DNA from: Alphaproteobacteria bacterium
GTDB lineage: Bacteria; Pseudomonadota; Alphaproteobacteria; CAAHEQ01; UBA3637
Direction of reading: 5' to 3'
Assembly: GCA_017960645.1 (NCBI GenBank)
Contig: JAGCYU010000013.1
Span: forward strand, 1-64,000
Length of the DNA stretch: 64,000 nt
In this document: positions 3,421 to 56,801 of the stretch, piece by piece
Position numbering within the stretch: the first letter of the stretch is position 1
Layout: the number at the start of each line of letters is the position of its first letter
Notes under the pieces: model-generated
The model's database searches: none
What the model was told of the DNA's origin: nothing
Seen by the model: the letters and a program-made list of their open reading frames with translations, nothing else
Translations under genes and position numbers: made by a program

Positions 3421-3480
3421 TTTATAAGTGGAAAAAAGTCAAGTTTTTTCTTTATAAGTGGAAAAAAGTCAAGTTTTTTC
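3421..3480. repeat. Two perfect tandem copies of a 30-bp unit
   Basis: The unit TTTATAAGTGGAAAAAAGTC followed by AAGTTTTTTC occurs twice head to tail without a mismatch (3421-3450, 3451-3480). It is intergenic, upstream of the minus-strand gene ending at 2885 and downstream of epmA. Perfect identity means a recent slippage or unequal exchange, or an assembly artefact. Confidence 0.9.
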
Positions 3481-20983: not shown

Positions 20984-21058
20984 TGGGGTGTCGCCAAGTG
21001 GTAAGGCAACGGTTTTTGATACCGTCATTCGTTGGTTCGAATCCAGCCACCCCAGCCA
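20984..21058 (+). tRNA. tRNA-Gln (anticodon TTG)
   Basis: 75-nt cloverleaf beginning TGGGGTGTCGCC with anticodon stem-loop ACGG-TTTTTGAT-ACCGT (anticodon TTG) and encoded GCCA end. The T arm GTTGG-TTCGAAT-CCAGC and acceptor end ACCCCA follow. It is the anchor of the first cassette array: copies of its 3' end recur downstream at 21196-21210, 22156-22165 and 22944-22953. Confidence 0.95.
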
Positions 21059-21067
21059 GTCACAAGA

Positions 21068-21090
21068 AACGCCCGTTTGGGCGTTTTTTT
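21068..21090 (+). terminator. Terminator directly behind tRNA-Gln
   Basis: AACGCCC-GTTT-GGGCGTT followed by T. Probably carried in by the geneless 152-bp unit, since a second, different terminator lies beyond the array. Confidence 0.85.
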
Positions 21091-21202
21091 GTGGCTGATG
21101 GGATGAGCGGAAGAGAATCATGTTCGCTCGCGAATGAAATGAGCGGACGCCTTTAGGCGGTCCAGAAGGGATAAATCGCCCTCGCGATTTACAATCAGCC
21201 AC
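21091..21202 (+). ncRNA. Geneless 152-bp unit with nested hairpins, possible structured RNA
   Basis: GTGGCTGAT (21091-21099) pairs with ATCAGCCAC (21194-21202), closing a region with three internal hairpins: CGCTC/GAGCG (21125-21145), GGACGCC/GGCGGTCC (21145-21163) and a perfect AAATCGC-CCTC-GCGATTT (21173-21190). An upstream GAGCG at 21105 competes for CGCTC. No ORF with a ribosome site is present on the plus strand. It may be a structured RNA, a DNA cruciform, or a relic; the closing 3' strand is itself part of the tRNA-Gln 3'-end copy. Confidence 0.35.
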
Positions 21203-21210
21203 CCCAGCCA
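21196..21210 (+). repeat. 15-bp exact copy of the tRNA-Gln 3' end
   Basis: CAGCCACCCCAGCCA, identical to tRNA-Gln 21044-21058. It marks the boundary between the geneless unit and the first gene cassette, as an attachment-site duplication would. Confidence 0.85.
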
Positions 21211-21265
21211 AATCGCACAAAACGCCAACTATCGGTACTTTTTCTTTTTTCCAATTGGTTATGCG

Positions 21266-21316
21266 AGTCCGTATGAGAATATTCAAAAATGGCTAAAAAT
21301 TCAACTTACACGGACT
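21266..21316 (+). repeat. 51-bp cassette hairpin, tRNA-Gln copy 1
   Basis: Begins AGTCCGT and ends ACGGACT, with CAAAAATGGCTA in the middle. Exactly 51 bp, like the five other copies in the window. It lies 55 bp after the tRNA 3'-end copy, upstream of the NTPase-SWIM gene. Confidence 0.8.
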
Positions 21317-21408
21317 CTTCAAATTCTAAAATTTGCTTTTAGATAAATTTGATTGACTTTGTTAAGGGGGTAGTATACACTAAATTCTAGATAAAAAAGG
21401 ATATGAAT

Positions 21409-22131
21409 ATGCTTTTATTAACAGCGCCTCCCAGAACAGGAAAATCCACCGCCATTAAGAAGATTATAACTTATTTAGGGGTTGGCAATTGTGCCGGCTT
21501 TTGGACAAAGCAAATCACTAAAGATGGCGAACGAGTTGGCTTTGAAATAAACCTGTGCTCTGGTGAAAAAGCTGTTTTGGCGCATGTAGATTCCCCAAGT
21601 TCCTTGCGAGTGAGTAGATATGGCGTGAATATCGAAACATTTGAAGACATTTGCTTGCCGAGCCTTAAAGCCAAACAGAGCAATTCGTATATTATTATAG
21701 ACGAAATTGGCCCTATGCAGTTGTTTTCCGAAAAGTACAAAGACATCTTAATGGATTTGGTCAATTCAAACAAAGTGATAGGTACAATCTTTTATGACTC
21801 TTATCCTTGGATCGACGAATTTAAGAAATTATCACAAAATACCCTTATAACTCTAACAAAAGAGAATCGGGATGAGATGCCTCTGCGAGTATTAAAGGAA
21901 ATTACAAAGGATGATGAGCTGTTGCAGTCCAAAATAGAACGAGCGGAAAACTATATCAAAACACCAGAAATCTTTTCAGTTCAAGGGGACAAAATAATGG
22001 TGAATTCAAAGCATGGCCCCAGATCAATCTCCTTTGAAGACGGAGCCCCCGTGTGTGATTGTGAATTCTTTAAGCAACATGGGACATGTAGCCATGTGAT
22101 AGCGGCTACTCAATTAGGTTTGTTGAAATAA
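21409..22131 (+). CDS. THEP1-like nucleoside-triphosphatase fused to a SWIM zinc finger
   Basis: 240 residues. The N-terminal ~170 residues resemble NTPase_1 (THEP1-type) P-loop enzymes: Walker A TAPPRTGKST at the start and Walker B with the family signature YIIIDEIGPMQLFSEKYKDI. The C-terminal ~55 residues hold a SWIM finger (CDCEFFKQHGTCSH, pattern CxCx8CxH), a module that usually binds nucleic acid or protein. The combination is unusual. Two ATG codons lie 6 bp apart; I take the second, 8 bp from AAGG. The stop is 4 bp before the cassette end element. Confidence 0.72.
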   Translation: MLLLTAPPRTGKSTAIKKIITYLGVGNCAGFWTKQITKDGERVGFEINLCSGEKAVLAHVDSPSSLRVSRYGVNIETFEDICLPSLKAKQSNSYIIIDEIGPMQLFSEKYKDILMDLVNSNKVIGTIFYDSYPWIDEFKKLSQNTLITLTKENRDEMPLRVLKEITKDDELLQSKIERAENYIKTPEIFSVQGDKIMVNSKHGPRSISFEDGAPVCDCEFFKQHGTCSHVIAATQLGLLK

Positions 22132-22135
22132 AAAC

Positions 22136-22165
22136 AGTCCGTGTATTGCAAGATGACCCCAGCCA
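22136..22165 (+). repeat. 30-bp cassette end element with tRNA-Gln 3' end
   Basis: Starts AGTCCGTGTATTGCAAGATG and ends ACCCCAGCCA, the last ten bases of tRNA-Gln. The same 30 bases recur at 22924-22953. Confidence 0.85.
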
Positions 22166-22176
22166 AGTCTTGAAGG

Positions 22177-22199
22177 GTGCCAAAAATTGGCACTTTTTC
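22177..22199 (+). terminator. Terminator at the start of the second gene cassette
   Basis: GTGCCAA-AAA-TTGGCAC followed by TTTTT. It sits 11 bp after a tRNA 3'-end copy, where it would have restored termination for the tRNA at the time of insertion. Confidence 0.85.
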
Positions 22200-22222
22200 T
22201 TTTATTTTCATGCTGTTATAAA

Positions 22223-22273
22223 AGTCCGTGTATGACTGTTCAAAAATAGCTAAATTTTCAGCCTACACGGACT
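22223..22273 (+). repeat. 51-bp cassette hairpin, tRNA-Gln copy 2
   Basis: AGTCCGTGTA and TACACGGACT form a perfect 10-bp outer stem; inside, CTG/CAG and AAAAT/ATTTT can pair around the loop AGCTAA. Exactly 51 bp. Confidence 0.85.
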
Positions 22274-22391
22274 AAAACTTGAAATTATTCTTTATTGTCA
22301 ATAACAGAGCCGCGGGATACTTAAAATTTGTCCCAGAAATATCTTGTGTTTTATATCAGAATACGCTAGACTTTCGGAAAAGGAGTATTTG

Positions 22392-22925
22392 ATGCGAATT
22401 CCTAGTGATAAAAAGACTTTTCTAGTAAAATCATTCTTTGGCTTTCTTGCCGTTGCAATGATACTTTATTTATTGATGGAGTATGTGTTTGGATTTGAGA
22501 AAGTGGGAGTGATGTCAGCCATTTTTGTTTTAGGATGTGCTTTTCCTATATTTTGTCACGAAGTTCTAACAAGAGGTGAAGATTTTCATAAAGAGATGTG
22601 TCCTTCAAATGAGGCTGTTGTTTATTTTTATGATCCATTTCATTTTCACCCCCCTAGAAATTATGGACATCAGATATGGGATGATCAAAAATGTTTGACA
22701 TATTTAATCATGCAAACTTATTCTGTGTTAACACTACCTCCAGGAGAGAAAGTTTTTTATGTGGATTACAAGCACGGAAAAAATAAATTAAACTTGAAGC
22801 TTGAAGCAGGACATTCATATTTTGTGAAAGTTACACCAGGTTTTATTTCTGCCAAATTATCTGTAGTTCCGGAACAACAAGCCCTTTCAGAAATTTCTTC
22901 TTGTGATAAGAAAGCTTGTTTTTAG
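22392..22925 (+). CDS. Cassette protein with two membrane helices and a DUF2846-like domain
   Basis: 177 residues. Two membrane helices at about residues 12-30 and 37-55 are followed by a soluble domain: AVVYFYDPFHFHPP...VLTLPPGEKVFYVDYKHGKNKLNLKLEAGHSYFVKVTPG, which resembles the beta-rich DUF2846-type domain often found on envelope proteins. I hold this resemblance loosely. AGGAG precedes the ATG. The TAG stop lies inside the 30-bp cassette end element (it shares the AG of AGTCCG), so gene and element are tightly fitted. Confidence 0.65.
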   Translation: MRIPSDKKTFLVKSFFGFLAVAMILYLLMEYVFGFEKVGVMSAIFVLGCAFPIFCHEVLTRGEDFHKEMCPSNEAVVYFYDPFHFHPPRNYGHQIWDDQKCLTYLIMQTYSVLTLPPGEKVFYVDYKHGKNKLNLKLEAGHSYFVKVTPGFISAKLSVVPEQQALSEISSCDKKACF

Positions 22926-22953
22926 TCCGTGTATTGCAAGATGACCCCAGCCA
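22924..22953 (+). repeat. 30-bp cassette end element, right end of the tRNA-Gln array
   Basis: Identical to 22136-22165. The sequence beyond it is not cassette-like and begins with a terminator, so this is the outer boundary of the array. Confidence 0.85.
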
Positions 22954-22961
22954 ACATAAAA

Positions 22962-22987
22962 AGCCCGACAAAATGCCGGGCTCTTTT
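22962..22987 (+). terminator. Probable original tRNA-Gln terminator, displaced
   Basis: AGCCCG-acaaaatgc-CGGGCT then CTTTT, starting 8 bp after the last tRNA 3'-end copy, the spacing expected for a tRNA terminator. It now lies 1.9 kb from the tRNA. Confidence 0.75.
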
Positions 22988-23003
22988 AAAATCTATTGTT
23001 CAA

Positions 23004-49588: not shown

Positions 49589-49665
49589 CGGAGTGTAGCG
49601 CAGCCTGGTAGCGCACTTGTCTGGGGGGCAAGTGGTCATGGGTTCAAATCCCGTCACTCCGACCA
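49589..49665 (+). tRNA. tRNA-Pro (anticodon GGG)
   Basis: 77 nt beginning CGGAGTGTAGCGCAGCCTGG, anticodon stem-loop CTTGT-CTGGGGG-GCAAG (anticodon GGG), T arm TGGG-TTCAAAT-CCCG and encoded CCA. Anchor of the second cassette array; copies of its last eight bases TCCGACCA recur at 50951, 52338, 53697 and 54808. Confidence 0.95.
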
Positions 49666-49673
49666 CTAAACAC

Positions 49674-49699
49674 AAGTCGTCTGAAAGGGCGACTTTTTC
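49674..49699 (+). terminator. Cassette-borne terminator behind tRNA-Pro
   Basis: AAGTCG-TCTGAAAGGG-CGACTT then TTTC. The same terminator is repeated at the start of the other three cassettes near 50961, 52348 and 53707. Confidence 0.8.
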
Positions 49700-49722
49700 T
49701 TTTGTTTCCAAGCACTTATAAA

Positions 49723-49773
49723 AGTTCGAATGTTGAAAGCCCAAAAACAGCCATTTTTGCAAATTTACGAACT
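49723..49773 (+). repeat. 51-bp cassette hairpin, tRNA-Pro copy 1
   Basis: AGTTCG and CGAACT at the ends, TTG/CAA and CAAAAA/TTTTTG inside, loop CAGCCA. Exactly 51 bp. Identical to copy 3 at 52396. Confidence 0.88.
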
Positions 49774-49841
49774 CTTGAAGCAAAAAATCCTTATTTTTCA
49801 ATACCCATCCCTTGGGAATCTAAAACTTCAATCCCAGGAAT

Positions 49842-50411
49842 TTAGAATTTTATTTCCTTATTATTGATTGCTTTTAAAAGGTCATTTTTAAAATCATTAT
49901 GAGTACTATTTTTCAATATCAAAAAATGAAAATTATTATTGTTTAGAATCTGCTGATACGATTTTTTACGGTTGTCATCAATATAGGTATCTTTTCCACC
50001 CTCTAACCAATAAATGGGCGTTTTTGTTATTTTCTTATATGAGATGTTATAAGGTAAATCTCCATTGATACTGATAACACTGGATAATTCCATTTCTAGA
50101 CCAATGTGAACAGCCATACCACCACCTTGTGAATGTCCAATAAGGATGATATCTTTTGTATTTGCATGAAGATTGCTTAGTTGTTCTTTGATGTATTGCA
50201 AGGAATAAGTATAATCTTTAACAACTGCATCACGTCGTCCATCTTTTTCGAACTTATTAAACCATCTATATTTATCAATTTTATCAGGATGTTTAAAAGG
50301 AGCATTAAAAGTAATTAAATCAGCATCACAGAACTCGATAACTTCATGCATTAAATCACCATAGGCATTTTTATCAGATCCAGAACCATGTAAGAAGACT
50401 AATTTTTTCAT
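49842..50411 (-). CDS. Cassette alpha/beta hydrolase
   Basis: 189 residues: LVFLHGSGSDKNAYGDLM (oxyanion HG), nucleophile elbow LIGHSQGGGMAVHIG (Ser), WLEGGKDTYIDD (Asp) and LKNSTHNDF (His), so the triad is complete. No signal peptide. Substrate unknown; esterase or carboxylesterase-type. It follows the isochorismatase-like gene by 8 bp on the minus strand, so both are one transcript reading toward the tRNA. Confidence 0.82.
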   Translation of the reverse strand: MKKLVFLHGSGSDKNAYGDLMHEVIEFCDADLITFNAPFKHPDKIDKYRWFNKFEKDGRRDAVVKDYTYSLQYIKEQLSNLHANTKDIILIGHSQGGGMAVHIGLEMELSSVISINGDLPYNISYKKITKTPIYWLEGGKDTYIDDNRKKSYQQILNNNNFHFLILKNSTHNDFKNDLLKAINNKEIKF

Positions 50412-50419
50412 TTGTCATC

Positions 50420-50860
50420 CTATTTAATATTGTGTTTACCGATATTACGAGTGAGAAGCTTTAATCCCATTTTATGGAAAATTTGATTTTCGCTAAAACA
50501 ATATTTTTTTAACACTATTGGACGAATTCCTTTTTCAATCAAATCCAATGCAGTCTTATAAATACAAGCATCTGTATCAAAACCACATAAATGGATTTCA
50601 TCAAAATCTTTCATTTTGAAGTGATAAGAAGAATAACCTTTCTTTTTAAAGGTGAACGCTTTTGTGGCAGGAGTAAAAGCAAGCGCTTCATCATCATAAC
50701 CTGTCCAAGGCATCAATTTTAATAAAGGACTTCCTTTATTTTGAAATTGAGAAACAAAGACATATTCATATTGATTTTGAAGTTTTTCAATTTTTTGAGG
50801 AAGTTTACTTCTTCCCACAGCGGATTTTTGAACATCAATAATCAATAAAGCTTTTTTCAT
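50420..50860 (-). CDS. Cassette cysteine hydrolase (isochorismatase/nicotinamidase family)
   Basis: 146 residues with the family triad: Asp in LLIIDVQKSAV, Lys in KAFTFKKKGYSSYH, and the nucleophile Cys in LCGFDTDACIYKTALDLIEKG. Acts on an unknown amide or ester. GGAG-like AAAAGGAGA precedes the ATG. Paired with the alpha/beta hydrolase in one cassette. Confidence 0.85.
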   Translation of the reverse strand: MKKALLIIDVQKSAVGRSKLPQKIEKLQNQYEYVFVSQFQNKGSPLLKLMPWTGYDDEALAFTPATKAFTFKKKGYSSYHFKMKDFDEIHLCGFDTDACIYKTALDLIEKGIRPIVLKKYCFSENQIFHKMGLKLLTRNIGKHNIK

Positions 50861-50921
50861 TTGCTCAGTCTCCTTTTGGTTATTTTACATTATTCAAAAA
50901 TCTATGTCAATATAAAATACT

Positions 50922-50951
50922 GGCTCGTGAATTGCGCATTCATTCCGACCA
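50922..50951 (+). repeat. 30-bp cassette end element, tRNA-Pro copy 1
   Basis: GGCTCGTGAATTGCGCATTC + ATTCCGACCA. Same length as the other end elements, with the least conserved middle. Confidence 0.8.
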
Positions 50952-51008
50952 CTAAACACAAGTCGTCTGAAAGGGCGACTTTTTCTTTATTTTACAAACA
51001 CTTGTGCG

Positions 51009-51059
51009 AGTTCGCATGTTGAAGTATCAAAAACAGCCATTTTCTTAGATCTACGAACT
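51009..51059 (+). repeat. 51-bp cassette hairpin, tRNA-Pro copy 2
   Basis: AGTTCGCATG at the start, TCTACGAACT at the end, centre CAAAAACAGCCATTTT. Exactly 51 bp; one base different from copy 4 at 53755. Confidence 0.88.
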
Positions 51060-51193
51060 TTTAAGTCAAAAAATCCTTATTTTTCAATACTCGTCCTCTG
51101 GGAGCCTCAACCCACCATCCCAGAAAATAGTGCTTGATTTCATCCTTTTTATTATGTAAAATGGCTTCAATATTTTTATTGGAAGGAATTACT

Positions 51194-52306
51194 ATGAAAA
51201 AGGTAAATTGGAAAAGCATTATTGGTTGGACAGTTGCTGCATTAGTCGCAGGTTTTATAGTATATTCTAACATGCAAGAGCAAAAGGCTTTACAGGAATC
51301 TGGGAAAAAAGTTGTATACGCAGTATTACCTTTAAGCGGACAGATAGCCAAGTATGGTAAGGATATGCAGAAAACAATGGAGATTTATGTCCAAAAGAAT
51401 AACCCTCCATTTCAAATTAAATTTTTGGATTCTGCGGGTGTTTCTGCAACAGCAGTTTCTGCTTTACAACAAGCCGCTTTATATGATAACAACCCGATTG
51501 TTATTTCATTGCCAACTCATATCAGTTCTGCACTTGCTCCCATTGTTGAGCAAAAAAATGGATTTCTGTTTGGAATCGCAACGCTTGCAGTCACTACGGA
51601 TTCAAAAAGTTTCCAACGTATGAGTCGTTGTGCAAAAGATGAAATTGGACCGTTAGGTGATTATATCTTAAAACATTTTAAGAAAATAGCCGTTGCTTAT
51701 ACACAAGATGACCACGGATTAAAAGATTATTCATACTTAAAAGATGCTTTAAAAGGTAGTAATGTTCAGATTGTTAGAGAAGTTATTGTAACGAGCACAG
51801 AAAGAGATGTAAGAAATGAAGCAGTTAAATTAATTTCATCAAAACCGGAAGCAGTTGTTGTTTTAGGACAAGCAATACAATCCTATCTCAACATTATCAA
51901 AGAATTAAAAAGACAAGATTATCAAGGACAAATTATGGCAGAGTGTAGTTTTACCAACCCACCTACATTTAATGCTTTGAATGGATATACTGAAAATGTT
52001 ATTTCATCTACTATGTCTGTTGAAATTGATATGGCCCAACCAAAAAGAATTGAGGAGTTAAGAACAGAGCTGAACAAGGATAATGTTCCGACATATTTCT
52101 TAACCGTTGAGGCTATTGATACACTTGATTTAATTGCTTACACTATCAATAATAATTTACCATTTTCACAAAAGACGTATGAACAAATGAAAAAATGGAA
52201 TGGAATTGCTGGGGATGTTATCTTTACTGGAAATGGTGATGCAAGTGTCTCATCATATCAATTAGCTAAAGTAAAAAACGGAAAGATTGTACCTGTTGAA
52301 AAATAG
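51194..52306 (+). CDS. Membrane-anchored periplasmic binding protein (branched-chain amino acid type), copy 1
   Basis: 370 residues. A single N-terminal helix (WKSIIGWTVAALVAGFIVYS) with no obvious cleavage site anchors a Peripla_BP_6-like domain: YAVLPLSGQIAKYGKDMQK, PIVISLPTHISSALAPIVEQ, FKKIAVAYTQDDHGLKDYS, EAVVVLGQAIQSYLNIIKELK. Such domains bind small ligands for ABC import or signalling, but no permease is nearby. It starts MKKVNWKS after GGAAGGA. It is paralogous to the next cassette's protein; the two N-termini are nearly identical and both end KIVPVE plus one residue. Confidence 0.8.
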   Translation: MKKVNWKSIIGWTVAALVAGFIVYSNMQEQKALQESGKKVVYAVLPLSGQIAKYGKDMQKTMEIYVQKNNPPFQIKFLDSAGVSATAVSALQQAALYDNNPIVISLPTHISSALAPIVEQKNGFLFGIATLAVTTDSKSFQRMSRCAKDEIGPLGDYILKHFKKIAVAYTQDDHGLKDYSYLKDALKGSNVQIVREVIVTSTERDVRNEAVKLISSKPEAVVVLGQAIQSYLNIIKELKRQDYQGQIMAECSFTNPPTFNALNGYTENVISSTMSVEIDMAQPKRIEELRTELNKDNVPTYFLTVEAIDTLDLIAYTINNNLPFSQKTYEQMKKWNGIAGDVIFTGNGDASVSSYQLAKVKNGKIVPVEK

Positions 52307-52308
52307 CT

Positions 52309-52338
52309 GGCTCGTGATTTGTGAGCTGATTCCGACCA
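52309..52338 (+). repeat. 30-bp cassette end element, tRNA-Pro copy 2
   Basis: GGCTCGTGATTTGTGAGCTG + ATTCCGACCA, starting 3 bp after the binding-protein stop codon. Confidence 0.85.
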
Positions 52339-52395
52339 CTAAACACAAGTCGTCTGAAAGGGCGACTTTTTCTTTTGTTTCCAAGCACTTATAAA

Positions 52396-52446
52396 AGTTC
52401 GAATGTTGAAAGCCCAAAAACAGCCATTTTTGCAAATTTACGAACT
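52396..52446 (+). repeat. 51-bp cassette hairpin, tRNA-Pro copy 3
   Basis: Identical to copy 1 at 49723. Followed by the TCTGGGA...TCCCAGA inverted repeat common to these cassettes. Confidence 0.88.
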
Positions 52447-52579
52447 CTGAAAGCAAAAAATCCTTTAAAATCAATACTCATCCTCTGGGAGCCTCAACCC
52501 ACCATCCCAGAAAATAGGGCTTGATTTCATCCTACTTTTTATGTAAAATAACTTCAATATTTTGATGGAAGGAATTACT

Positions 52580-53665
52580 ATGAAAAAGCTAAATTGGAAA
52601 AGTATTGTTGGTTGGACAATCGCAGCATTGGTGGCTGGATTTATCGTCTATTCCAACATCCAAAAACAAAAGACATCCAATGAAAAGCCAAATATTTTGT
52701 TCATGGAATATCAAACTGGATTGGGAACAGCCAGTGATGCAATGAAAAAAATTATTGCTGCTTTCAAAGAAAACAATCCTAATCTTTCATTTAACTGGAT
52801 TGCCGTGGATACAGGATACAATCCTTCAACAGCTGTTTCCATCTTACAACAGCAATTAGCACTTCATAAAATTGATGCCGTTGTTTCTTTTGGATTTTTA
52901 ATCAACTCTGTTGTTTTACCTATAACACAAAAGGAAAATATACCAACAATAGCCCTTTATAACGCAGGTATGGAGAAGTTTGACGAATATAAAAATTATC
53001 AATCATTCAGCCACAGCCAAGAAGATTCCATAAAACCCATTGTTGATTTTATCAATAAAAATGTTCGTAAAGTAGCGGTCTTATATATTAATGATGTTTA
53101 TGGGCCAGTTGCATTGAATTATATTCAAAAAAACTATAAAGGTGGAGAAATTGTTTTTAAGGAAAGTTTTGAACCCAAAGACTTGGATACAAGAATTTTA
53201 GTTTATAAAGCACTTCAAGAAAATCCAGAGGCCATTTTAGTTTTAGGCTATGGCGCAGGATACAATAACATTTTAAGAATGTTAAAATCTAATGAATATA
53301 AAGGATATATCATTGCAGATTTAACTACTGGAAGCAGTTATCAAGAATATGTGCAAAATCCAGAGGTTTATAGGGATGTTTATTTTTCAGCCCCTAAAAT
53401 TAATACAGAAAGTGCTTCATATCGTAAGTTAATGACGACAAAAAATCATAATGAATTTTTACCAATCAATATGGTTTTATATGATGCATTTGATTATATT
53501 CAAAAAGCAGTTGATAACGGAAAAGGTCTAACACAAAATGACTTCTTAAAACAAGGTGAAAATCAGGGGATTGTTGAAACTGTGTTCCTGCCAAACGGAA
53601 GAAGTCAGGTAAAAATGGTTTTATCAAAATGGAACGATAGCAAGATTGTGCCGGTAGAGGAATGA
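52580..53665 (+). CDS. Membrane-anchored periplasmic binding protein, copy 2
   Basis: 361 residues, paralogue of the preceding cassette protein. Anchor helix WKSIVGWTIAALVAGFIVYS, then a binding-protein fold: ILFMEYQTGLGTASDAMKK, IDAVVSFGFLINSVVLPITQ, VRKVAVLYINDVYGPVALNY, EAILVLGYGAGYNNILRMLK. Its ATG context (GATGGAAGGAATTACT) and upstream ~70 bp match copy 1 closely, so the cassettes share promoter and leader as well as protein family, while the ligand-binding part has diverged. Confidence 0.8.
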   Translation: MKKLNWKSIVGWTIAALVAGFIVYSNIQKQKTSNEKPNILFMEYQTGLGTASDAMKKIIAAFKENNPNLSFNWIAVDTGYNPSTAVSILQQQLALHKIDAVVSFGFLINSVVLPITQKENIPTIALYNAGMEKFDEYKNYQSFSHSQEDSIKPIVDFINKNVRKVAVLYINDVYGPVALNYIQKNYKGGEIVFKESFEPKDLDTRILVYKALQENPEAILVLGYGAGYNNILRMLKSNEYKGYIIADLTTGSSYQEYVQNPEVYRDVYFSAPKINTESASYRKLMTTKNHNEFLPINMVLYDAFDYIQKAVDNGKGLTQNDFLKQGENQGIVETVFLPNGRSQVKMVLSKWNDSKIVPVEE

Positions 53666-53667
53666 TG

Positions 53668-53697
53668 AGTTCGTGATTTGTGAGTTGATTCCGACCA
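53668..53697 (+). repeat. 30-bp cassette end element, tRNA-Pro copy 3
   Basis: AGTTCGTGATTTGTGAGTTG + ATTCCGACCA; identical to copy 4 at 54779. It starts 2 bp after the stop codon. Confidence 0.88.
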
Positions 53698-53754
53698 CTA
53701 AATACAAGTCGTCTGAAAGGGCGACTTTTTCTTTATTTTACAAACACTTGTGCG

Positions 53755-53805
53755 AGTTCGCATGTTGAAGTATCAAAAACAGCCATTTTCTTAGATTTAC
53801 GAACT
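53755..53805 (+). repeat. 51-bp cassette hairpin, tRNA-Pro copy 4
   Basis: AGTTCGCATG...TTTACGAACT with centre CAAAAACAGCCATTTT, 51 bp. Confidence 0.88.
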
Positions 53806-53981
53806 TTTAAGTCAAAAAATCCTTATTTTTCAATACTCGTCCTCTGGGAACCTAAAACCACTATCCCAGAAAAATTGATCTAAAAATTTAATTTATTTTG
53901 CAAAAATATATTGACTTAACAGTAGTTTTTTTGTTTAATGAAACTGGTTACGAATGTGTAACCCCAAAAAAGGAGATAAAC

Positions 53982-54725
53982 ATGGCTATATTTGAACATT
54001 TAAAAAATGCAAAAAAAGAAACAGAAATGAGAGATTCTACAGAAGATACTCCTATATCACAGGAAGACTTATTGGCTTTCAAAGAAGCGCATCCAGAAAA
54101 AGTTTTTCAAGTTAAAAAGATTCCAATTCCTGTATCACTTAAAAAAGTGAGCGGACAAGAAAAAGCTGTTACGACTGTATTGGCAAGAGATGGAAGACTC
54201 ATTGAAGAAACAATTCAAACTGCACAAGACGGATTTGCTATCGATACAAGAACCTGCATTAATGGTGCAAAAGATCAATATGCCAAAAAACCGGCAAAGG
54301 CAGGACCAAATGATTATACTGTGGATGATGGTAGGACTTTTGAAGACATGAAGCCGGGTGAAACTGCTGCTGCGCATACCGTCGGTGGTAAAGTGAGAAA
54401 TGCTTTTGTTGCAGAAAAGGATATGTGGATTGCAACATCATGGGGTGTACCTCAGCGCATTGGTAGGGGTGGTTTAATTACTTTTATGGGAAATGAAGCC
54501 ATTGGGAATAACAACCCTTGCGATTTGGTCATTCAAGAAGGTGATAAATCAGGTAAAACACCTTTAACTACGTATGCTTATAACATTGCAAAAGAATACG
54601 AAGCAACCTTTGGTAAAAAACCTGAAGGTGGTGTTAAATTATTTTTGGATGTTGCTTTAGAAGAAGATAAGAAAAATCCTTATCAGATGCAAATCATTTC
54701 CAGAGGAAATGTATTGGGCGGCTAA
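53982..54725 (+). CDS. Cassette protein of unknown function
   Basis: 247 residues, soluble, no signal. A polar N-terminal ~120 residues (DLLAFKEAHPEKVFQVKKI) is followed by a more conserved-looking domain: KPGETAAAHTVGGKVRNAFVAEKDMWIATSWGVPQRIGRGGLITFMG, then LVIQEGDKSG. The MWIATSWGVPQ...GGLITF stretch has the feel of a small barrel repeated twice (compare VRNAFVAEKD), perhaps PGDYG-like, but I would not assign it. The ATG has AAAGGAG. It has its own terminator at 54736. Confidence 0.6.
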   Translation: MAIFEHLKNAKKETEMRDSTEDTPISQEDLLAFKEAHPEKVFQVKKIPIPVSLKKVSGQEKAVTTVLARDGRLIEETIQTAQDGFAIDTRTCINGAKDQYAKKPAKAGPNDYTVDDGRTFEDMKPGETAAAHTVGGKVRNAFVAEKDMWIATSWGVPQRIGRGGLITFMGNEAIGNNNPCDLVIQEGDKSGKTPLTTYAYNIAKEYEATFGKKPEGGVKLFLDVALEEDKKNPYQMQIISRGNVLGG

Positions 54726-54735
54726 TTGAAAAATT

Positions 54736-54769
54736 TAACCTCATTTCGTGGTGAAATGAGGTTTTTTTT
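54736..54769 (+). terminator. Terminator of the fourth cassette gene
   Basis: AACCTCATTTC-GTG-GTGAAATGAGGTT followed by TTTTTT. Confidence 0.9.
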
Positions 54770-54778
54770 CAGATCTTG

Positions 54779-54808
54779 AGTTCGTGATTTGTGAGTTGAT
54801 TCCGACCA
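54779..54808 (+). repeat. 30-bp cassette end element, right end of the tRNA-Pro array
   Basis: AGTTCGTGATTTGTGAGTTG + ATTCCGACCA. Beyond it the cassette-type start (CTAAACACAAG) is absent, so this is the outer boundary. Confidence 0.88.
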
Positions 54809-54812
54809 ATGG

Positions 54813-54840
54813 AAAAATCCTGTCTATCAGGGCTTTTTTA
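54813..54840 (+). terminator. Probable original tRNA-Pro terminator, displaced
   Basis: AAAATCCTG-TCTAT-CAGGGCTTTTTT, starting 5 bp after the last tRNA 3'-end copy. Now 5.1 kb from tRNA-Pro. Confidence 0.7.
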
Positions 54841-55299: not shown

Positions 55300-55782
55300 T
55301 CATTCCATGCATAAAGCATAATTAGAAATCTTTTCCCGCAGTGAGTTGGAGCCTCGTGTTTGGGTATTGTTTACCCCCACAGCACCTGAAGATAGAATAA
55401 CATAATAAGAACGCGATTCATCCACAGGCAAAGTTGTCCAAACTGTTGTGCTATCAATGCCTTTTGCATTAGCGCACGCTCCTGTAGCCGCATTCCATCC
55501 GCTGGGGATTCCTGGGCAAAGATTGGCAAAACTGACCATGTTGCGGCCAATAGATTTGCACCAAATGAGGGCGCTAAACCAATTCATCTTTTGAGGACTT
55601 TGACAAAAATTAAGGCCGTTGCAATGGGCGGCATCACAACCTTCATCTGTGGCATTGCGGGCTGTGATCCAGGTTCCGCCGACTGATTGACAGCCGGCTT
55701 CAGTCCATTCAATTGTGGTTTCTGCATGTGCAGCAGTTGCCACAGTTAATCCTAAAACCAATACAAATATATTTTTCTTCAT
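55300..55782 (-). CDS. Secreted cysteine-rich protein, copy 1
   Basis: 160 residues with a Sec signal (MKKNIFVLVLGLTVATAAHA, cleavage after AHA) and nine or so cysteines. The mature part (ETTIEWTEAGCQSVGGTWIT, FSALIWCKSIGRNMVSFANL followed by CPG) looks like a degenerate C-type-lectin-like or extracellular disulfide domain ending in YALC. Probably an envelope or secreted binding protein. It is one of two tandem copies with a 695-bp period; the central 60 residues and the upstream 200 bp are almost the same in both, while the C-terminal part differs. Confidence 0.65.
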   Translation of the reverse strand: MKKNIFVLVLGLTVATAAHAETTIEWTEAGCQSVGGTWITARNATDEGCDAAHCNGLNFCQSPQKMNWFSALIWCKSIGRNMVSFANLCPGIPSGWNAATGACANAKGIDSTTVWTTLPVDESRSYYVILSSGAVGVNNTQTRGSNSLREKISNYALCME

Positions 55783-55836
55783 CTTTCCCCCGTTGTTGTT
55801 GAAGTTTTTGTCATTTCTCCCCCCATTAAATCAAAT

Positions 55837-55844
55837 ACGATCGT
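55837..55844. promoter_or_regulatory. ACGATCGT palindrome upstream of copy 1 (proximal)
   Basis: ACGATCGTTTTT, about 55 bp upstream of the secreted-protein start. The equivalent site of copy 2 is 56532-56539. Confidence 0.45.
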
Positions 55845-55965
55845 TTTTGGTCAGAGAAAAACAAGGTGTTTGAGGTAGAAAAAGAAATTCATCTGAAACC
55901 CTTATATGATGGGAATTTCAGCCAGTTTTTAAGAATTTTTCAGAAAGGTCAAAAAAGGGCTTGAC

Positions 55966-55981
55966 AAAAACGATCGTTTTT
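55966..55981. promoter_or_regulatory. 16-bp palindrome AAAAACGATCGTTTTT (distal, copy 1)
   Basis: A perfect palindrome whose left end overlaps TTGACA at 55961-55966 on the plus strand. It lies about 130 bp from the proximal ACGATCGT. The pair has the look of an operator for a dimeric regulator. Confidence 0.5.
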
Positions 55982-56021
55982 GGCCAGCTGGAAGGCCTGT
56001 ATTTACAGGGGTTCCATTATT

Positions 56022-56477
56022 TTATTGTTCACATACAGCCCATGTACTAGCAGAGGACCGAGCGGCATTATTGTGACTATGTCCATTTACAAGCTCCACT
56101 GTAAAGGCATTTTGGCTCCCGGAAGGTAAATTTGTCCATCCCCAGGATACACCACGGCTTTTTATATTCGTACAAGGACCATTATCATTGGCAGCCGTTG
56201 GAATTCCAGGACATAAATGCTCAAAGCTAACAAGTTTATGTCCAATAGATTTGCACCAAATGAGGGCGCTAAACCAATTCATCTTTTGGGGACTTTGACA
56301 AAAATTAAGGCCGTTGCAATGGGCGGCATCACAGCCGGAATCTGTTGGACTGTGAGCTGTGATCCATGTACCTCCAACCGATTCACACCCGGCTTTTGTC
56401 CATTCAATTGTGGTTTCTGCATGTGCAGCAGTTGCAAATGTCAAACTTAAAGCCAATACAAATATATTTTTCTTCAT
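56022..56477 (-). CDS. Secreted cysteine-rich protein, copy 2
   Basis: 151 residues, paralogue of the gene at 55300: same signal peptide (MKKNIFVLALSLTFATAAHA) and same block GCDAAHCNGLNFCQSPQKMN, then FSALIWCKSIGHKLVSFEHL. The C-terminal 50 residues (WGWTNLPSGSQNAFTVELVN) resemble CTL-type domains, again only loosely, and end in TWAVCEQ. Start codon is exactly 695 bp from that of copy 1, with the same GGGGGAAAG ribosome site and upstream short frame. Confidence 0.65.
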   Translation of the reverse strand: MKKNIFVLALSLTFATAAHAETTIEWTKAGCESVGGTWITAHSPTDSGCDAAHCNGLNFCQSPQKMNWFSALIWCKSIGHKLVSFEHLCPGIPTAANDNGPCTNIKSRGVSWGWTNLPSGSQNAFTVELVNGHSHNNAARSSASTWAVCEQ

Positions 56478-56531
56478 CTTTCCCCCGTTGTTGTTGAAGT
56501 TTTTGTCATTTCTCCCCCCATTAAATCAAAT

Positions 56532-56539
56532 ACGATCGT
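56532..56539. promoter_or_regulatory. ACGATCGT palindrome upstream of copy 2 (proximal)
   Basis: Same position relative to the gene as 55837-55844, 695 bp away. Confidence 0.45.
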
Positions 56540-56660
56540 TTTTGTGTCTGCAAAAATCGGGATGTTTGAGCGCGCAAGTAAATTTGCCTAAAACCATTAT
56601 AAGGCGGGGATTTTAGCTTGTTTTTAAGAATTTTAAAAAAACATCAAAAAAGCCCTTGAC

Positions 56661-56676
56661 AAAAACGATCGTTTTT
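56661..56676. promoter_or_regulatory. 16-bp palindrome AAAAACGATCGTTTTT (distal, copy 2)
   Basis: Identical to 55966-55981 and again joined to TTGACA (56656-56661). The rest of 56680-56800 shows nothing recognisable. Confidence 0.5.
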
Positions 56677-56801
56677 GACCAGCTGAAAGGCCTGTATTTA
56701 CAGAAGCATCAGCATTTTATCTTGCTTGCTCATAACCTGGGGCTATATTCATGTTCCAACCACGATAATTACTATTAACTGCGCAAAATGACAAGTTTTA
56801 C

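Follow-up and report, generated by a model that had tools for sequence, protein, structure and literature searches.

Recombinase-less one-gene cassettes are stacked directly 3' of tRNA genes in an alphaproteobacterial family

One-gene cassettes are stacked directly 3' of many tRNA genes in one bacterial family. The array architecture described by a sequence-only reading is genuine, and we confirmed it at tRNA-Pro and tRNA-Gln of the window, the 64,000-nt stretch of DNA that was analysed (Table 1). The reading to which we give a probability of about two in three sees in the arrays small non-autonomous integrative cassettes, stacked and moved by a recombinase supplied in trans. Because the signals bounding the cassettes are alike and resemble recombination sites, and the cassettes have no recombinase, the arrangement has an integron-like look, spread across many tRNA genes.

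As shown in Table 1, four units follow tRNA-Pro, and a geneless unit and two cassettes follow tRNA-Gln; the order first reported could be read directly. A cassette runs from the tRNA tail through a terminator, a 51-bp inverted repeat and the gene or genes to a 30-bp end element with a copy of the tail, and the two loci together hold six inverted repeats and six end elements. The palindromic pattern AGTNCG-N39-CGNACT was searched across the whole genome (1.14 Mb): all 10 matches lie inside such arrays, and a reversed control pattern gave 0. Terminator-like sites in the Pro region numbered 10 against 3.5 expected, each Pro unit starting with one. The GC content of the Pro array (33.5%) is below that of every 5.1-kb window outside it. 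The terminator-like flanks 3' of the arrays are probably the original terminators of tRNA-Pro and tRNA-Gln, the latter displaced by its array; for the Gln flank, terminators at empty sites in relatives serve as the comparison.

Table 1. Features of the tRNA-Gln and tRNA-Pro arrays in the window.
Feature	Position	Strand	Basis
tRNA-Gln(ttg), host of first array, intact including CCA	20984..21058	+	ARAGORN, Rfam
Geneless Gln unit, own terminator and hairpins	21059..21210	+	sequence reading
Gln cassette 1	21211..22165	+	sequence reading
51-bp inverted repeat (two arm sites), Gln cassette 1	21266..21316	+	sequence reading, pattern search
NTPase_1-like protein, 242 aa, Gln cassette 1	21403..22131	+	Pfam PF03266, E 3.7e-37
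30-bp end element with final CAGCCA, Gln cassette 1	22136..22165	+	sequence reading
Gln cassette 2	22166..22953	+	sequence reading
51-bp inverted repeat, Gln cassette 2	22223..22273	+	sequence reading, pattern search
183-aa protein, weakly DUF2846-like, Gln cassette 2	22374..22925	+	Pfam PF11008, E 6.2e-6, below cut-off
30-bp end element closing Gln array	22924..22953	+	sequence reading
Terminator-like flank 3' of Gln array	22954..22990	+	sequence reading
tRNA-Pro(ggg), host of second array	49589..49665	+	ARAGORN
Pro cassette 1	49666..50951	+	sequence reading
Terminator, left end of Pro cassette 1	49674..49695	+	terminator search
Equivalent terminators, other Pro cassettes	50960-50981, 52347-52368, 53706-53727		terminator search
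51-bp inverted repeat, Pro cassette 1	49723..49773	+	sequence reading, pattern search
Alpha/beta hydrolase (Abhydrolase_2), 189 aa, Pro cassette 1	49842..50411	-	Pfam, E 8.1e-16
Isochorismatase-like hydrolase, 146 aa, Pro cassette 1	50420..50860	-	Pfam, E 2.5e-11
30-bp end element, Pro cassette 1	50922..50951	+	sequence reading
Pro cassette 2	50952..52338	+	sequence reading
51-bp inverted repeat, Pro cassette 2	51009..51059	+	sequence reading, pattern search
Peripla_BP_6-type periplasmic binding protein, 370 aa, Pro cassette 2	51194..52306	+	Pfam, E 4.4e-20
30-bp end element, Pro cassette 2	52309..52338	+	sequence reading
Pro cassette 3	52339..53697	+	sequence reading
51-bp inverted repeat, Pro cassette 3	52396..52446	+	sequence reading, pattern search
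Second Peripla_BP_6-type protein, 361 aa, Pro cassette 3	52580..53665	+	Pfam, E 8.1e-17
30-bp end element, Pro cassette 3	53668..53697	+	sequence reading
Pro cassette 4	53698..54808	+	sequence reading
51-bp inverted repeat, Pro cassette 4	53755..53805	+	sequence reading, pattern search
247-aa protein, Pro cassette 4	53982..54725	+	no Pfam/NCBIfam match
30-bp end element closing Pro array	54779..54808	+	sequence reading
Terminator-like flank 3' of Pro array	54809..54840	+	stem 54818-54832

The geneless Gln unit, at first grouped with the cassettes, is present but of a different type: it has an RtT-like architecture, lacks the 51-bp repeat, and its last 19 nt repeat the T-arm/acceptor 3' strand of tRNA-Gln. 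Rfam gave no RtT match for it (21059..21210); RtT (RF00391) was scored only by a unit in a relative (L033), with an E value of 0.022, below gathering.

Stacking at tRNA 3' ends extends to further arrays in the same genome, at tRNA-Met, Glu, Lys, Thr and Leu. A model of the cassette left end had 23 matches there; in the search of related genomes that the first reading had called for, it matched 31 of 34 genomes of the family versus 1 of 24 from the rest of the class. The units are hosted by 14 tRNA isoacceptors, and the 49 complete units that were sized measure 607-2249 bp. The genomes compared are drafts, one per species, and all comparisons between genomes are comparisons between species. The family consists of gut bacteria with streamlined genomes.

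The cargo is diverse: of 69 cargo proteins, 50 have no relative among the rest, and the families represented include GNAT, methyltransferase and NUDIX. Genes lie with the tRNA in 43 cases and against it in 26. As first claimed, no recombinase or integrase was found in any unit examined or among the cargo families listed.

The repeat between terminator and gene had been described as a conserved hairpin of exactly 51 bp in every copy. That length is a local property, because across the family its length depends on class, with 63 distinct copies of 51 bp, 46 of 52 bp and rare ones of 50 or 53; at both loci of the window it does hold. The hairpin itself does not survive for the Pro/Met/Glu class, where a single-strand structure is rejected on conserved arm mismatches at positions 7, 9 and 10 and on folding of most Pro and Met copies barely above that of shuffled sequences. 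The Gln, Thr and Lys arms pair well, and these classes stand outside the rejection, which, like the pairing, is judged from sequence. Each class has one arm motif, which occurs in either arm of the repeat and a third time at the opening of the end element, and we read the arms as repeated binding sites, the pair forming two putative inverted protein sites. Arms are independent of the tRNA: Pro shares its arms with Met and Gln with Tyr, and one Gln array has mixed arm types. The claim that element sequences match the host tRNA by locus thus holds for the tail (the last 6 nt or slightly more) and fails for the arms. The tail lies between core-like inverted repeats (TTGCAC-N18-GTGCAA in Glu, for example), whose centre is ~2 bp away from it. 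A tyrosine-integrase attP combines arm-type sites with core sites around an overlap identical to attB; arms and a 6-nt identity were found here, the core-like repeats being off centre. The arm pair with its third copy would fit the att sites that a trans-acting, site-specific recombinase uses.

The final 6 nt of a unit (NNNCCA) are identical to the 6 nt immediately preceding it, and 43 of the 45 end elements agree with their host tRNA in these final 6 nt. Both exceptions occur at one locus (L070), where a geneless unit with the tail TCGCCA follows a tRNA ending in TCACCA and the cassette behind it matches the geneless unit's tail, not the tRNA. In one species tRNA-Glu ends in TCACCA and is paired with an element end TCACCA, while TCGCCA pairs with TCGCCA. 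A Met-type cassette (CAACCA class) at a tRNA-Gln site (L032) is preceded by a copy ending in CAACCA, not CAGCCA. The 8 nt preceding the tail differ by tRNA class. Among 96 left ends, 34 follow the CCA of a tRNA, 37 the end of another unit, 18 a T-arm copy and 6 the repeated sequence GATGTCGG; only 1 of the 96 falls outside these contexts.

Cassette content at one tRNA varies by presence and absence between species. At tRNA-Pro(ggg), 8 family genomes have a cassette left end, in ~4 a geneless unit comes first, and ~10 have neither. One cassette is shared across genera at 88% DNA identity; its copies in G001, G006 and G022 are 85-90% identical and have different positions and neighbours. Empty sites, which the first reading had expected in relatives, thus exist at this tRNA, but flank-matched ones, sought via DAGK and OadB, were not found because synteny is lost at the genus level.

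In the reading that we prefer, each cassette would carry the halves of an att site at its two ends: on the left a core-like sequence right after the tail, the terminator and an inverted pair of ~9-12-bp arm sites spanning 51-52 bp, and on the right one further arm site, a core-like sequence and the 6-nt tail. A trans-supplied recombinase, most likely a tyrosine integrase in type, would cut the cassette out as a circle. Strand exchange would then place it within the final 6 bp (NNNCCA) of a tRNA gene, or within an identical tail that an earlier insertion left behind. The tRNA would be kept intact, the cassette would supply its own terminator, and the stack would grow by repeated insertion. We infer the circular intermediate, tyrosine chemistry and supply in trans; action in trans can fairly be inferred. 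Against this reading stand the off-centre core-like repeats and the fact that a 6-bp target duplication would yield an identical 6-nt rule.

So does the outcome of the recombinase search. A shared integrase elsewhere in the genome had been suggested, but no cognate enzyme was found among PF00589 proteins of the same genome, the genus and 9 family genomes, and the arm repeat is absent from integrase loci except where an integrase neighbours an array. A helper att site, sought in viral contigs, phages and plasmids with exact and spaced patterns, gave nothing or chance matches in unrelated sequence. A stand-alone 193-aa tyrosine recombinase was rejected as the trans enzyme, being patchy, multi-copy and missing from complete array-bearing genomes; it scores, like XerC and XerD, far below the IntI cut-off. 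A reverse-transcriptase route was also rejected (reverse transcriptase is absent from the genome of the window and patchy elsewhere).

The cassettes might instead have arisen by deletion from larger ICEs, IMEs or islands that target tRNA genes, with the att sites and a single cargo gene left over; their mobility would then depend on an integrating relative whose excision spans them. CIMEs are elements of this kind, tandem, integrase-less and with att sites in common, and geneless microCIMEs of 130-220 bp exist (PMC7563491). DUF6538 integrases, which make up the remaining PF00589 proteins of genome G000, adjoin tRNAs in the genome of the window. The end repeats of their islands differ (GTGTAACAC), which also removes them as the cassette enzyme, and the draft genomes searched yielded no full-length parent with these cassette ends. 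The units are regular in anatomy and compact, unlike products of random decay, and we consider this origin unlikely.

A transposase-like or Cas1-like integrase making a 6-bp target duplication at tRNA 3' ends would account for the exact 6-nt match, and casposases target tRNA 3' ends. Against it, there is no fixed terminal dinucleotide, the first 4 nt of the element vary, and the 8 nt before the tail vary by tRNA class as if travelling with it. No cargo family listed encodes a Cas1-type integrase, as a casposon would, and 12 of the 13 genomes tested, that of the window included, lack Cas1. A casposase was rejected, and this route as a whole is quite improbable.

The host's XerC/XerD might move the cassettes, perhaps helped by accessory proteins bound to the arms. 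They are the sole tyrosine recombinases detected in two near-complete array-bearing genomes (G020, G031), with XerC alone in a third (G014). The Pro/Met end element contains TTGCGCATT, which loosely resembles a XerC half-site of the dif consensus. The other side has no XerD-like half-site, the likeness fails in the Gln, Tyr, Thr, Leu and Lys classes, and known Xer-using elements insert at dif, not at tRNA genes; this makes Xer-driven movement very improbable. Old arrays with no recombinase now active, swapping cassettes by homologous recombination between shared flanks, as leaders repeated across ~260 nt (66-84% identity to a reference copy) might allow, are hardly credible, since first insertion, the 6-nt rule and empty beside occupied sites in one family would all go unexplained.

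The arrays are not a canonical integron. Like integron cassettes and integrase-less integron arrays, they comprise small, variable units of one or few genes with diverse cargo and the recombinase outside; this part of the integron likeness first proposed stands. Unlike an integron, they have no integron integrase and no attC motif, gene orientation is mixed, platforms are many and dispersed, and exchange would occur at the tRNA NNNCCA, ~57 bp from the inverted repeat and not inside a palindrome. A dispersed integron-like system, in which the CCA ends of many tRNA genes act as platforms where one or a few trans recombinases, of an unrecognised type and unlinked to the cassettes, would operate, is a possible but tentative reading.

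The view that such arrays are unprecedented gives way to published additive islands and integrase-less CIMEs. Passages on 'Ca. Actinomarinales' fGI1 (PMC7771536) and 'Ca. Methylopumilus' fGI-2 (repeats ~20 nt; PMC10872708) describe additive flexible islands with tRNA-fragment repeats, and the likeness extends to the use of several tRNAs, inter-genus transfer and streamlined genomes. Our arrays have such tRNA-derived direct repeats, with content variable between species. Those passages report no conserved arm-site pair and no 30-bp end element, whereas the cassettes here share tails down to 6 nt, are mostly one-gene and use 14 isoacceptors. Like CIMEs and microCIMEs (PMC7563491), the units have flanking putative att sites, lack recombination and transfer genes, accrete in tandem at a conserved gene 3' end and include geneless forms; CIMEs are deletion derivatives beside ICEs or IMEs of the same att, and no such parent was found in the draft genomes searched. 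Tycheposons are likewise cargo elements anchored to tRNA, but they span 4-200 kb with a tyrosine recombinase in the passage describing them (PMC10872708), against 0.6-2.2 kb without one here. Cassette islands anchored to tRNA are known as a kind; what appears new is the att anatomy, together with the 6-nt rule and the number of tRNAs used. The literature searched, which mostly excluded subscription journals, contained no description of the cassette anatomy.

Additive tRNA islands have been presented as patterns in which neither site nor enzyme was defined. The cassettes described here allow the unit, both of its ends and a 6-nt rule of targeting to be spelled out and tested. The missing enzyme is a clear and answerable question, and a recombinase accepting matched NNNCCA tails could serve as a tool. 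The arrays would show streamlined gut bacteria gaining single genes at many places with their tRNAs undamaged.

Two arrays with the layout claimed in the sequence-only reading were confirmed in the window sequence, at tRNA-Pro and tRNA-Gln. In both, a CCA immediately precedes each cassette, whose left end consists of about 10 nt followed by a terminator-like hairpin and then a 51-bp inverted repeat; its right end is a 30-nt element closed by a six-nucleotide tail (NNNCCA). The palindromic pattern, with 10 matches genome-wide (reversed control pattern, 0), also revealed arrays at tRNA-Met and tRNA-Glu. Among 96 left ends, the preceding site was a tRNA CCA in 34, another unit's end element in 37 and a T-arm copy in 18; six lay behind a repeated GATGTCGG sequence and one behind another site.

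Coordinates of units, repeats and related features (L-handles are further DNA stretches)
Feature	Stretch	Position	Strand	Remark
Pro array units	window	49666-50951, 50952-52338, 52339-53697, 53698-54808		behind tRNA-Pro
Gln array, geneless unit	window	21059-21210		
Gln array, cassettes	window	21211-22165, 22166-22953		
Other geneless units	L027, L030, L032, L033, L051, L052, L070, L072			
CAATGAGACACAATGAGCCAAATGG...GAATTGATGTCGGAATTG repeat	L034, L062, L063, L071, L028, L314, L309, L310, L312			
Periplasmic-binding-protein cassettes with a common leader (Pro, Met arrays)	window	51174-51286, 52560-52672		
The same	L019	8350-10836		
Tandem duplication	window	55505-56720		695 bp spacing, 80-86% identity, two related short genes inside
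30-bp tandem repeat	window	3421-3480		two identical copies, palindrome within
Left-end match outside the family	L054	1501-1594		genome G054
193-aa stand-alone tyrosine recombinase	L023	15828-16409	minus	78-91% identity in several relatives
DUF6538 integrases	L020, L021, L022, L024			adjoin tRNA-Val, Lys, Met, Arg

The last six nucleotides of the end element were those of the host tRNA in 43 of 45 cases, and identity dropped from position 7 onward, where five or six T-arm copies included in the comparison inflate it. Both exceptions came from one array, in which the tRNA ends in TCACCA, the adjacent geneless unit in TCGCCA, and the cassette behind that unit agrees with it (TCGCCA). In stretch L032, a Met-type cassette lies behind a Gln copy ending CAACCA. 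These sequence comparisons indicate that cassette type tracks the local six nucleotides instead of tRNA identity. Such a match would be expected from a recombinase overlap. A 6-bp target duplication likewise predicts and accounts for it, but predicts neither the class-specific bases ahead of the tail nor the lack of fixed element termini.

The inverted repeat had been taken for a conserved hairpin of 51 bp in every copy. Beyond the window this length did not hold, with 63 distinct copies of 51 bp versus 46 of 52 bp. Arm classes were AGTTCGTAA (Pro, Met, Glu), AGTCCGTGT (Gln, Tyr), AGTCCGATA (Thr), AGTTCGA (Lys, Leu) and a few others, and an arm-like motif opens the end element. The two Pro/Met/Glu arms match each other at positions 2-6, 8 and 11; positions 7, 9 and 10 pair in only 15-17% of copies, being conserved in both arms but differing between them. 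DNA folding of six Pro/Met copies gave z-scores of -0.3 to -1.6, and some Gln, Thr and Lys copies folded well. We therefore rejected a folded hairpin as a family-wide feature and favour reading the repeat as two predicted inverted protein sites. Promoter-like sites (no commoner than in shuffles) separate the repeat from the gene in Pro cassettes 2 and 3; this placement of the repeat upstream of them argues weakly for a role as DNA.

Many relatives carry geneless units of about 120-220 bp between a tRNA and the cassettes, each closing in a 19-nt copy of the tRNA T-arm/acceptor strand. One scored weakly as RtT RNA (RF00391), and the units may represent a second and independent tRNA-tail element. 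The CAATGAGACACAATGAGCCAAATGG...GAATTGATGTCGGAATTG repeat, probably a MITE-like insertion, takes the junction's place before some cassettes in either orientation.

A left-end covariance model matched 23 times in the source genome, in 31 of 34 family genomes (11/11 of the genus) and in only one of 24 outside the family. The latter match, too, sits immediately behind a tRNA, tRNA-Gln(ctg); greater age of the system, or its transfer, may explain this. Scanning a genome collection for the Pro/Met form gave 20 stretches, all from Alphaproteobacteria MAGs, with mostly ruminant guts as origins in their titles. Host tRNAs were Pro (ggg, cgg, tgg), Gln (ttg, ctg), Met, Glu, Lys (ctt, ttt), Tyr, Thr, Leu, Ser and Gly. 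At tRNA-Pro(ggg), a left end directly follows the CCA in eight family genomes (only a remnant in G027) and a geneless unit comes first in about four; about ten lack a cassette and show an ordinary terminator instead. One Lys-array cassette recurs in genomes G001 and G006 and in G022, which belongs to another genus; protein identity is 93-96%, DNA identity 85-90%, and positions and neighbours differ. G001 and G006 also share a Gln-array unit (96% DNA identity).

Cargo comprised 69 ORFs (50 singletons, seven small clusters), 43 oriented with the tRNA and 26 against. Families included GNAT acetyltransferases, methyltransferases, NUDIX, HAD, LysE, glycosyltransferases and periplasmic binding proteins, with few defence matches. 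Window cassettes encode NTPase_1-like, DUF2846-like, alpha/beta hydrolase plus isochorismatase-like, two Peripla_BP_6 and one unknown product. The Pro and Met periplasmic-binding-protein cassettes have a common N-terminal membrane anchor, MKK.NWK..IGW.IA.LVAGFI; one Met-array copy is broken into two frames.

As the sequence-only reading had held, no recombinase gene was found in any unit examined. The genus has as tyrosine recombinases XerC, XerD, the DUF6538 island integrases, a 193-aa protein of patchy occurrence and a few others; among array-bearing genomes, XerC and XerD are the only ones in G020 and G031, and XerC the only one in G014. The 193-aa protein occurs in several copies and pseudogene fragments. 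At three of the four DUF6538 loci, GTGTAACAC-like repeats lie close to the tRNA; a downstream tRNA copy was not found within the stretches read. Cas1 was not found in 12 and reverse transcriptase in 9 of 13 genomes tested, and viral, phage and plasmid collections held no att-like site. With no matching enzyme in these genomes and collections, the enzyme would thus come from an element outside the sampling, or be a resident protein not recognised as such.

On the features tested, the arrays are neither integrons nor casposons. Like the arrays, the islands of 'Ca. Actinomarinales' (PMC7771536) and 'Ca. Methylopumilus' (PMC10872708) insert at multiple tRNAs, as cassettes with tRNA-fragment repeats; CIMEs are likewise tandem units without an integrase (PMC7563491). 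The arrays are therefore a variant of tRNA-anchored additive islands, in which the enzyme is missing and a defined att-like anatomy and a targeting rule appear to be new.
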